A DNA stretch of 64,000 nucleotides from Coniferiporia sulphurascens (lineage: Eukaryota; Basidiomycota; Agaricomycetes; Hymenochaetales; Hymenochaetaceae). Below, one piece after another: positions 57,305-61,727 of this stretch. Position 1 is the first letter of the stretch; every line of letters begins with the position of its first letter. Where the stretch lies: assembly GCA_002794785.1 (NCBI GenBank), contig NBBA01000004.1, positions 248,001 to 312,000 of the forward strand, read 5' to 3'. The notes beneath the pieces were generated by a model. That model had not been told where the DNA came from. It worked only from the letters and a program-made list of their open reading frames with translations, and ran no database searches. A program made the position numbers and the translations under genes.

Positions 57305-59092
57305 ATGAAATTATCAGCCACATTTACTGCTCTTCTCTCACTGGTACCGTTTGCCGTTGCACAGCAGGCCGCCTGGGGACAATGTACGGACACTTTCCCA
57401 CTCCGACTACCTTTTATTGATTCTTATTTCACCACGACAAATAGGCGGTGGAATTGGCTGGACCGGCGCAACTACTTGCGTTTCCGGATATGCATGTGTC
57501 GAGACAAATGAATATTACTCGCAATGTATACCGTCCACGAGTGCGCCAAGCACCAGCTCCAGCCACAGCTCCACCCAGGGAGGCGGGACACCCACTACCA
57601 CCTCTTCCAATGGTGGGGCAACGTCCACAACTGGCCTTAACAGCGCCGCGAAGGCCGCGGGCAAGATGTACTTCGGCACTGCTACCGATGAGAGCGAGTT
57701 TGGGAGCGATGCGGCCTACGCGGCGATCCTGAAGGAGACGACCGAGTTCGGCCAGTTGACGCCGTTGAACAGCATGAAATGGGCATGTATTATTATCCTT
57801 CTCCAAAATTTATTTTACTAAGTGCTTTCTAATCAGGACTCTACCGAGCCTGAGCGTGGTACTTTCACTTTCACGGCTGGTGACCAACTCGTCGCAGAAG
57901 CGAAGGCGAACGGGCAGATTGTGCGCGGTAAGTGAAAGTTTCGTCAGTCGCGGATGCTGCCTAATACATCTATATTTAGGACACAACTGTGTCTGGTACA
58001 ACCAGCTTCCGAGCTGGGTCACCTCAGGAAACTTTAACTCTACAGCGTTGACCTCGATCATCCAGACTCACTGCTCGACTCTCGTTTCGCATTTTAAGGG
58101 CGAAATGTAAGCTCACCATTAATTGATATGGCTAACCCTAGTTACTAAACTTGTTTCCCTCAGTTGTCAGTCGATGTCCCCGCGCGAGTAGAGTAATGCG
58201 CTAATTTAACATTTCTTCCACACAACAGACGCATGGGATGTCATTAACGAACCTTTGTGAGCTGTTTTGTTACCTCTGGGGATATCGAAACTGAAATCTG
58301 TACAGCAACGATGACGGTACATGGCGCTCGGATGTGTTCTACAACACACTAGGCACGAGCTACGTCTCTATCGGCCTCAACGCTGCGCGCCCCGCAGACC
58401 CTAGTGCTAAACTCTACATCAATGATTATAATATCGAGAACACCGGTATGCTTATTATTATAGCAAGTATATGTCTCTTATTAATCCACTATATTTCAGG
58501 CGCAAAAGCGACAGCAATGGTCAACCTCGTTCAGTCCCTAAAAGCCGCAGGCGTGCCGATCGACGGAGTCGGATTCCAGTGCCATTTCATCGTCGGAGAG
58601 GTCTCTACCAGCATGCAAACCGTTATGGAGCAGATGACTGCCCTTGGAGTCGAGGTACCGCCATGATGAATAATCCTTGAATACTCGAAATTTAACGAGT
58701 TTATGGATAGGTTGCGATCACAGAACTCGATATCCGCATGACCCTCCCGTCTACGACTGCTCTCCTCGCCCAGCAGCAGAAGGACTATGAGACAGTCATC
58801 TCCCAGTGCAAGGCGGTGTCTGGATGCATCGGAGCGACCGTGTGGGACTACACTGACAAGGCACGTGGTTGTTACTTCTCCTTCGCAAAATCTTCGCTGA
58901 CTATAATTGGACGGCTTTGTTCTCCAGTACTCTTGGGTTCCGAGCACATTCAGTGGTCAGGGCGATGCCTGCCCATGGGACTCGGTGAGCGACGCACCCT
59001 CCATATATGTTGAAGATCTTCTAATACGTTTTAAACCGCATCAGAACCTCCAAAAGAAGCCAGCACACGATGGTATCGTTGCAGGGTTCTAA
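57305..59092 (+). CDS. Endo-1,4-beta-xylanase A, CBM1-GH10, secreted
   Basis: Eleven exons (57305-57383, 57445-57782, 57837-57927, 57980-58106, 58164-58165, 58229-58256, 58306-58445, 58500-58654, 58711-58860, 58928-58984, 59045-59092) give 404 residues. A signal peptide ([19 protein letters not shown]) is followed by a fungal cellulose-binding module CBM1 ([18 protein letters not shown], with the four Cys), a Ser/Thr/Gly linker, and a GH10 barrel from about residue 85. Barrel marks: [22 protein letters not shown] with acid/base Glu220, [17 protein letters not shown], and AITELDIR with nucleophile Glu325. It hydrolyses xylan outside the cell. Introns 2 and 9 have GC donors (GCATGT, GCACGT) where copy B has GT. 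Exon 5 is only 2 nt. All frames are intact. Confidence 0.93.
58164..58165 (+). other. 2-nt microexon (TT) in xylanase A
   Basis: The exon before ends in AT (58106) and the exon after begins AC (58229). The conserved Ile-Tyr of GH10 (GEIYAWD) needs exactly two more bases in between. TT at 58164-58165 is bounded by CAG on the left and GTCAGT on the right, with flanking introns of 57 and 63 nt. The same arrangement occurs in copy B. Confidence 0.8.
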
Positions 59093-59931
59093 GTGTGACG
59101 AGCTCTTTGACCCACGACGCGCATATACTTCCTGCCTTATTTTGGGTAGTCAATTTCGGGTTGATGAACGAAATGAGAATGATTCCTATGAAACTGAAAT
59201 AAGCAGCACGCGTCTCTCTCTCGAGCTGGCGACTTTAGGCTTCCGAGTCCTGGAATTGTCGGAGGTCTGGTCTGTTCTGCTATTGCCCAGCTGGCAAAAT
59301 TGTCCCCGGACTGTTACACCGGTTTTATCCCGGTTCACGTGATACATAAGAGGCTATAATTCGGATATCTGACGCGTGGCTCGCGGGGGCTTTTAAGTTG
59401 TCTATTTACTGGACCACGAACTTTGCTACTGGATGGCTCCGACCGTTTCACCAGCTAAAATCAGTCATAAAGCTATTTAGGTCTAATTCGTGTGTTCTGT
59501 GACCAAGGAGTTACTTTTACCTCAGCCTCGCTGGCGCTGGCAAGGACTCGGAATCTGCAAGTAGCTGCCGAACTGAACGGCAAACATGACGAAAAGCGGC
59601 CAAAAGTCGGATTATCGTCCTCAGTCCATCGGAGACTGACAGAAGAACGTTCCCCCAGCTGTCGTGGATCATAGTGAATGTCACTGAAGAAGGCCGGTAG
59701 GGCCGCTCCTCGCATATTTCGTGACGATGGTCAATGGACGGCGCGGAGATTCCTCCGCACGGACCGTCGAACTGATCCATTGCCTTCCAGAACCTGTTCA
59801 CGAGCCCCGCAGTCATAAACCGTCTCCATAAATTCTGCGACGTACAACCGGTTCGACGAATGCTTTATAACTAAGACCCGTCTCCCGGAAACGCAAAACA
59901 ATCTCCATAGGACTCCTGCGGAATCCTGAAG
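59093..59931. other. Spacer between xylanases A and B
   Basis: 3' flank of copy A and promoter of copy B. No gene found. Confidence 0.5.
59864..59870 (+). promoter_or_regulatory. TATA-like box of xylanase B
   Basis: TTTATAA, 62 nt upstream of the start codon, at nearly the same distance as the TATA-like site of copy A. Confidence 0.45.
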
Positions 59932-61727
59932 ATGAAAACTTCACGCTTTGCCTCTTTACTGGCATTAATACCGTTAGCTGTCGCCCAACAGGCCGGCGTG
60001 TGGGGACAATGTGAGGTGTTCATTCCAGGACACGGTGCTTGCATTTTGATGCCTTCCACTTTTAGGCGGCGGAATTGGGTGGTCCGGTGCAACGACCTGC
60101 GTTTCTGGTACAGTCTGCACAGTCTTGAACGACTACTTCTCGCAATGTCTTCCGTCCGCGAGCACTGTATCATCTTCCTCTACTGTATCGTCTTCTTCTA
60201 CGGTATCATCTTCGTCGACATCCTCGGCACCCACCTCTACATCCACCGTTGCCGGCCTCAATGCTGTAGCTCAGGCTGCCGGAAAGCTCTACTTCGGTTC
60301 TGCGACCGACAATCCCGAGCTCACAGATACCGCTTATGTTGCCATCCTTAGCGACAATAAGCAGTTCGGGCAGATCACTCCAGGAAACGCAATGAAATGG
60401 GTGAGCGCCTCCCTTGGTCCGATTATGCGGGAGACTCGCGCATAGAATCTGAACTCTGTGCGACATTAAGGATGCTACTGAGCCAACTCAAGGCGTGTTT
60501 ACATTTGCTTCAGCAGACCAAATTGTCGACCTTGCACAAGGAAATGGACAGATCCTCCGCGGTGAGCTGGCCTGCACACTGTTTCCGATGACGTCCGGAC
60601 TAAGTAATTTTAACGATTTAGGACATAATTGTGTTTGGTATAACCAGCTTCCTAACTGGGTTACCGCAGGCAACTTCAATGCCACAGAGTTAACGTCGAT
60701 CATCGAGACGCATTGTTCTACTATCGTTGGAAATTATGCCGGAGAAATGTGAGCTAACAAACTTAATATACCGCCATCGTCGCTCACAGTACAATGTTTT
60801 GCAGCTGTCAGTGTTCCCTTATTACTTATGCTTGACATTGACCATTCATTCGTCTAATATATGCAGATTCGTGGGACATTATTAACGAGCCATTGTAAGT
60901 TCCCCACCAATCGATTGTGCAACATTTTTTGACTTGTACATCCACACGCAGTAACGATGACGGTACATGGCGCTCGGATGTGTTCTACAATACGCTAGGA
61001 TCGAGCTACGTCTCTATCGGTCTTAACGCTGCGCGTCCCGCGGACCCCAACACTAAACTCTACATCAATGATTATAATATCGAAAACACAGGTATGTTTG
61101 TTATTACAGCAGGTATGTGTCTTCGTTAATTTGCTGTATTCCAGGCGCAAAAGCGACTGCAATGCTTGACCTCGTTCAGTCCTTGAAGACTGCAGGCGTG
61201 CCGATCGACGGAGTCGGATTCCAATGCCATTTCATCGTCGGAGAGGTCTCTACCAGCATGCAAACCGTTATGGAGCAGATGACCGCTCTCGGAGTCGAGG
61301 TACTACTGTGGTGAAATTAGCTCATACATCCTGAGATCTAACAGATTCGCAGGTTGCGATCACGGAGCTTGACATTCGCATGACCCTTCCGTCCACGGAT
61401 GCCTTACTCGAACAGCAGCAAAAGGACTACGAAACAATTATTTCTCAATGCAATGCGGTGCCGGGATGCATTGGAATGACCGTGTGGGATTACACTGACA
61501 AGGTAAATGCTTTCATCACCCCTCCTCCCCGAGGCCTTTGCTGAGCACGGCTGGGTATCTTTGCCTTTTAGTACTCCTGGGTTCCGAGTACATTCAGCGG
61601 TCAAGGTGCTGCCTGCCCCTGGGATGAGGTGAGCGATTAGATGCCTGTATAACAAACGGTTCTTCTGATTTCCGTCCAGAACCTTGTAAAGAAGCCAGCA
61701 TATGATGGTATCGTTGCAGGATTGTGA
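59932..61727 (+). CDS. Endo-1,4-beta-xylanase B, CBM1-GH10, secreted
   Basis: Exons 59932-60010, 60066-60400, 60471-60561, 60622-60748, 60805-60806, 60867-60894, 60952-61091, 61145-61299, 61353-61502, 61572-61628 and 61680-61727 give 403 residues, with intron positions identical to copy A. Signal peptide ([17 protein letters not shown]), CBM1 ([18 protein letters not shown]), a linker with three TVSSSS repeats, then GH10 with WDIINEPF (acid/base Glu219) and AITELDIR (nucleophile Glu324). All ten introns are GT-AG, including the two that are GC-AG in copy A. It arose by tandem duplication of A or the reverse; exons are far more alike than introns. Predicted secreted xylanase targeted to cellulose-bound xylan. 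Confidence 0.93.
60805..60806 (+). other. 2-nt microexon (CT) in xylanase B
   Basis: Same position as in copy A: AT (60748) + CT + AT (60867) codes Ile-Tyr, followed by SWDIINEP. Bounded by CAG and GTCAGT; flanking introns are 56 and 60 nt. Confidence 0.8.

Follow-up and report, generated by a model that had tools for sequence, protein, structure and literature searches.

A window of 64,000 nucleotides (nt) of the Coniferiporia sulphurascens genome (C4:248001-312000; the genome comprises 39.35 Mb, distributed over 31 contigs) carries two tandem genes for CBM1-GH10 xylanases, copy A at 57305..59092 and copy B at 59932..61727, both on the forward strand and each with 11 exons at matching positions. 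The spliced models have coding sequences (CDSs) of 1215 nt (A) and 1212 nt (B), and their products match the Pfam domains CBM_1 and Glyco_hydro_10, the latter with 370.6 and 369.2 bits, respectively. Judging from their sequences, these two genes and a third paralogue of the same genome, L023, very probably hold a constitutive two-base coding exon, [T/C/A]T, just 5′ of the GH10 WDxINEP block. An initial annotation of the window had proposed such an exon in A and B, and our analysis bears it out: only retention of TT in A and of CT in B yields a full GH10 domain, and both CDSs then close.

In copy A, exon 4 (57980..58106, 127 nt) ends GGCGAAAT, its last bases being the AT of an Ile codon. It is followed by intron 4 (58107..58163, 57 nt, phase 2, GTAAGC...CCCTCAG), by the 2-nt exon 5, TT (58164..58165), which supplies the third base of the Ile codon and the first base of a Tyr codon, and by intron 5 (58166..58228, 63 nt, phase 1, GTCAGT...CAACAG). 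Exon 6 (58229..58256, 28 nt), on whose side the junction reads ACGCATGGGATG, completes the Tyr codon and encodes the AWDVINEPF block. Copy B has the same arrangement: exon 4 (60622..60748, 127 nt) ends GGAGAAAT, again with the AT of the Ile codon, and is followed by intron 4 (60749..60804, 56 nt, phase 2, GTGAGC...TTGCAG), exon 5, CT (60805..60806), intron 5 (60807..60866, 60 nt, phase 1, GTCAGT...ATGCAG) and exon 6 (60867..60894, 28 nt), which reads ATTCGTGGGAC on its side and encodes the Tyr end and the SWDIINEPF block. The exon end in AT, the Ile-Tyr pair and the string CAG-(TT or CT)-GTCAGT between two introns of normal size are all as first described.

The exon had been assigned to both paralogues, which is correct for A and B, but three genes share the layout. 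The third, L023 (G000:C7:206800-210000, with exons spanning locus positions 936 to 2499), is without a CBM1 and has its later introns at the same positions as A and B. Its 127-nt exon ending in AT is followed by a 62-nt phase-2 intron, the two bases AT, a 54-nt phase-1 intron and a 28-nt exon, and its second donor is GTTAGA, where A and B have GTCAGT. The catalytic block itself thus sits on an exon of only 28 nt in A, B and L023 alike (positions 1617-1644 in L023). All three proteins contain a full-length GH10 domain (PF00331, 363-371 bits, profile positions 2 or 3 to 309 of 311), and they are 74.4% (A-B), 69.6% (A-L023) and 74.2% (B-L023) identical. The exon had further been placed next to the catalytic Glu; in copy A the junction encodes Ile212-Tyr213 and the catalytic residue is Glu220, so that the Tyr precedes it by 7 residues. 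Two other GH10 genes of this genome, L021 and L022, read continuously through the site with no intron. In L022 (G000:C6:1149500-1152500, minus strand), the frame near the MKW junction fails to close in a simple reading.

The two bases, TT in A, CT in B and AT in L023, finish an Ile codon (ATT, ATC and ATA) and open a Tyr codon (TAC, TAT and TAT). Across the three genes the first base takes all three Ile wobble letters, and the second is always T. We enumerated the splicing solutions for this junction in two ways. For single introns we allowed donors GT or GC, beginning 45 nt upstream, together with AG acceptors and a minimum length of 35 nt; for two introns the outer sites were fixed, the exon was shorter than 40 nt and the introns were at least 40 nt. 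The canonical single introns gave 2 (A), 3 (B) and 14 (L023) in-frame, stop-free solutions, and in none of the three genes did a single GT/GC-AG intron give GE/GQ-IY-WD with intact neighbours. The initial annotation had named a single long intron, with the two bases supplied by a different acceptor, as a result that would overturn the exon, and the enumeration returned no such intron. With the 2-nt exon included, the in-frame two-intron solutions numbered 5 (A), 6 (B) and 1 (L023). The 2-nt exon was the only enumerated solution that gave GE/GQ-IY-WD without gain or loss of residues, and in L023 it was the sole two-intron solution with the outer sites fixed. The computed junction strings with the 2-nt exon are GAAATTTACGCA (A), GAAATCTATTCG (B) and CAAATATATGCA (L023), and those with the exon skipped are GAAATACGCA, GAAATATTCG and CAAATATGCA. 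On paper, skipping destroys the enzyme, as had been claimed, with stops at residues 218 (A), 217 (B) and 147 (L023); retaining either flanking intron also leads to an early stop.

The lengths of the introns agree with this division. In A, B, L023 and L021 together, the remaining 29 introns range from 49 to 82 nt in length (mean 59.4, standard deviation 7.1); the undivided spans of 122 nt (A), 118 nt (B) and 118 nt (L023) lie outside this range, and their halves of 54-63 nt lie inside it. The motif AGNNGT occurs exactly once in each of the three spans. We simulated 20,000 spans per gene that preserved the dinucleotide transitions; YAG[ACT]TGT with an intron of 49 nt or more on each side arose in 1.39% (A), 1.11% (B) and 1.20% (L023), chances that are not freely multiplied because the three genes are related. 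When the six flanking introns were compared pairwise by local alignment, none of the 15 pairs reached significance (lowest p 0.065), and the layout is the same in A, B and L023 despite this. Within each gene, the upstream and downstream introns likewise showed no significant similarity, and an origin by duplication of one intron was rejected. Under permissive global alignment, A and B were 0.70 identical in intron 4 and 0.76 identical in intron 7, and eight of the other nine introns compared in this way were 0.49-0.63 identical, intron 7 being the ninth.

Other features of the two copies were recorded as well. The stretch of exon 7, intron 7 and exon 8 (58306-58654 in A, 60952-61299 in B) has a third-position identity of 0.77-0.82 and an intron identity of 0.76, and exons 2-4 have a third-position identity of only 0.26-0.52. 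The exon 7-exon 8 stretch is possibly a gene conversion tract, and the microexon lies outside it. Introns 2 (57783-57836, GCATGT) and 9 (58861-58927, GCACGT) of copy A are GC-AG introns, where copy B has GT. A decayed GH10 fragment (62786-62890) lies 3′ of copy B and is 43% identical to residues 226-263 of A and B, and more GH10-like pieces in other frames extend from it down to about 63400.

The layout of the microexon is directly seen in three paralogues of one genome, and for other species we relied on defects in public protein models. Among the matches listed for copy A, 41 of 120 relatives had an insertion or deletion (indel) within 4 amino acids of the microexon junction; at eight other junctions the same 120 proteins showed 2, 2, 1, 0, 0, 0, 1 and 1 indels. 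Further relatives of L023 gave a similar picture, with a defect at this junction in 18 of 42 and at other junctions in 0-2 of 42. We then sorted the 162 relatives by source, which gave 144 genome-annotated proteins, 13 from uninterrupted open reading frames (ORFs) in contigs and 5 deposited individually. Defects were present in 61 of the 144 genome-annotated models (58 indels and 3 with the WD block lost) and in 0 of the 13 uninterrupted-ORF proteins (Fisher p 0.0018). The latter, all clean, come from jgi/lgn contigs, 11 of them shorter than 1.6 kb, and this set probably consists of transcripts. As an intronless control we used 80 GH10 loci from genome contigs, all bacterial by title, of which none was defective. 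In the group of L021-type proteins, 1 of 33 was defective at this site (P0151, from a 977-base jgi contig), and their own ordinary junctions had defects in 0-5 of 31-33. The background of annotation errors is above zero yet far under 61 of 144. None of the 120 relatives had an indel at the distal end of the 28-nt exon, and therefore this exon is not the cause of the model errors. A second indel hot spot was found at copy A residues 108-117 (116 of 120 relatives), off any junction and in a stretch peculiar to A.

The defective models came from Hymenochaetales, Boletales, Russulales, Polyporales and Agaricales, the order having been looked up for a single species in each case. Because they occur in five Agaricomycete orders, we infer that the exon probably occurs widely and is wrongly annotated. 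It is probably old, common to many xylanases of this type in Agaricomycetes and often misread by gene finders, the software probably being unable to handle so short an exon and returning faulty models. The same two-residue loss recurs in 21 of the 144 models, 17 of which keep Ile and 4 Val, as would be expected from use of an acceptor inside the Tyr-Ser pair (TAC-AG|C).

The same behavior can be followed in Coniferiporia weirii, a hymenochaetoid Agaricomycete. Its protein M0805_006303 is the closest public protein to A among the matches listed (96% identical), and the next locus tag, M0805_006304, is also among them and has an N-terminus that fits B. The public C. weirii orthologues read GEILYAWD (P0001), GEIATFRSYSWD (P0005) and GHWSDAWD (P0241) at the junction. 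The next-best in-frame solutions enumerated from the C. sulphurascens genome were GEIRYAWD (5-nt exon), GEITMFCSYSWD (17-nt exon with the same CT end) and GHWSDAWD (donor GTCAAA, -9 nt). P0241 is identical to the enumerated string in every letter, and P0001 and P0005 differ from theirs by letters and agree in length and place. The errors of the public models look like solutions forced upon a gene finder.

The prevailing view is that the short introns of fungi are each recognised as a unit. In the three genes, each flanking intron of 54-63 nt would most likely be recognised in this way, by intron definition, and the pair would be removed successively; because the introns themselves are recognised, exon definition would not be needed. 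Binding of U1 to the second donor would overlap with that of the 3′ splice-site factors to the first acceptor, and the two could not bind jointly, so that one intron would have to leave first. Once it is removed, the two bases would sit in a normal exon. The layout would be kept because loss or skipping of the exon shifts the frame. Donor scores, upstream and downstream, are 8.05 and 4.79 in A, 6.75 and 4.79 in B, and 5.14 and 3.58 in L023; they give a weak hint that the upstream intron may be removed first, although three cases prove little.

Several observations weigh against the two-base exon. The relatives were compared as proteins, this genome being the only Agaricomycete DNA in the comparison, and a scan of viral contigs for Agaricomycete DNA relatives found none. 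The uninterrupted-ORF set is partly redundant, with one junction string common to 5 of its 13 members, and the 83 clean genome-annotated models are not informative on whether their genes contain the microexon. Four of the five individually deposited relatives have a clean junction; the exception, Irpex lacteus P0104, which may derive from complementary DNA (cDNA) or from genomic DNA, reads GQVYVYAWD, with two residues more. With an identity of 0.70, the two copies of intron 4 may still fall short of full saturation. The downstream donors, the weaker of each pair, stand at the 7th to 31st percentile of 29. Finally, all three genes stay in frame if a single intron is moved by two bases, which gives GEMYAWD, GEMYSWD and GQMYAWD (ATGTAC or ATGTAT), and among 100 clean relatives 9 have Met here.

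The moved intron is one form of the explanation that one long intron is removed and that the protein departs from the GH10 consensus; the other form is a canonical intron with another donor or acceptor. Canonical solutions exist in all three genes, as enumerated above, and one of them is adopted in P0241, the C. weirii orthologue of L023. However, none keeps GE/GQ-IY-WD, and no common lossless solution serves the three genes. The moved intron would start with AAGC, GAGC or TCGT, which is no known donor, two bases past the canonical one, and was rejected. A long intron would also exceed the size range of the 29 other introns, where the internal acceptor and donor split the span into introns of normal size. 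We consider this explanation highly improbable.

A real exon might instead serve as the regulated switch that the initial annotation had suggested, in which conditional skipping produces a frameshifted, decaying messenger RNA (mRNA) and less xylanase. The early stops that follow skipping would make the output on or off, and inclusion of a 20-nt microexon of Xlr2, a xylanase regulator of Trichoderma virens, is reportedly glucose-dependent (PMC11121469). On the other hand, skipping would require the removal of 118-122 nt as one intron, more than is seen elsewhere in this gene group, mis-spliced exons of any length not divisible by three commonly lead to early stops, and all 13 uninterrupted-ORF relatives include the residues. 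Such a switch is possible, is unsupported here, and seems to us very unlikely. An exon that is real and longer, of 5-20 nt in A or 8-23 nt in B with extra residues ahead of the catalytic block, is extremely unlikely: it corresponds to four further two-intron solutions in A and five in B, to the choices made in the C. weirii models of the A and B orthologues and to the two extra residues of Irpex lacteus P0104, but every one of these solutions inserts residues, which differ by gene, L023 offers none, an insertion here is found in 0 of 80 bacterial and 0 of 13 uninterrupted-ORF proteins, and four of the five alternatives in B need a first intron of 41 nt, below 49-82 nt.

The two-base exon can be set beside known systems. 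Bounded in each of the three genes by GT-AG introns of 54-63 nt, its 2 nt fall within the size class of ultra-short microexons (at most 15 nt, with canonical introns). Exons of 1 nt are described in plant APC11 and VPS55 (PMC4674806, PMC8831610), and for Arabidopsis APC11 the authors propose intron definition with successive removal of both introns (PMC4674806). Microexons of plants are often misannotated (PMC8831610). As in APC11 and VPS55, the ultra-short coding exon is essential to the frame and is absent or wrong in public annotation. The present case differs in length and in belonging to a fungus, and its upstream intron has 56-62 nt, compared with 333 nt in APC11; moreover, the plant exons are proven by cDNA and reporters, and here we infer the inclusion of the two bases in the mRNA from DNA and proteins.

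In fungi, P450 genes of P. chrysosporium have exons down to 6 bp (PMC1184071), gene sets of that species differ in small exons (PMC4084796), and lipS of Dactylellina haptotyla has two 3-nt exons (PMC5639578). The P450 and lipS exons likewise lie in intron-rich fungal genes, and they differ in being longer, multiples of three and from other families. A single-nucleotide exon separates the introns rnl-576 and rnl-577 in the mitochondrion of an Ophiostomatales strain (PMC12308204). There, too, a minimal exon of a fungus stands between two introns and the authors point to misannotation; the introns, however, are of group II and lie in a mitochondrial ribosomal RNA gene, and the exon is neither spliceosomal nor coding. 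The Xlr2 microexon is likewise fungal, tied to xylan degradation and overlooked by annotation, but it belongs to a transcription factor, has 20 nt and is reported to be included in response to glucose. Fungal stwintrons consist of two U2-type introns at one site that are removed successively (PMC5639578). We rejected this structure for the xylanase genes because neither intron interrupts a splice element of the other, each having its own donor and acceptor with two coding bases between them. A zero-length recursive splice site was rejected because the AG does not directly abut the GT and the two bases between them are essential to the frame. Among the listed titles and abstract openings, a search of the literature outside subscription journals found no earlier report of a 2-nt exon, and an older cDNA paper may mention one.

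A wider proposal is that the microexon is older than the split of the Agaricomycete orders, that its splicing is obligately ordered, slow or condition-dependent and coupled to mRNA decay, and that it forms a class-wide checkpoint on wood-degrading enzymes; we regard this as improbable. If the two-base exon is real, it would be the shortest coding exon of a fungal nuclear gene among the reports compared (3 nt, 6 bp and 20 nt). The exon is of interest for its size, for its site before the catalytic motif of a much-studied enzyme family and for the trail of faulty public models that it appears to leave. Synthetic genes or evolutionary analyses built on the defective models would be faulty. With diverged introns in three paralogues, and probably in many species, these xylanase genes would offer a natural test of how the spliceosome deals with introns only two bases apart.

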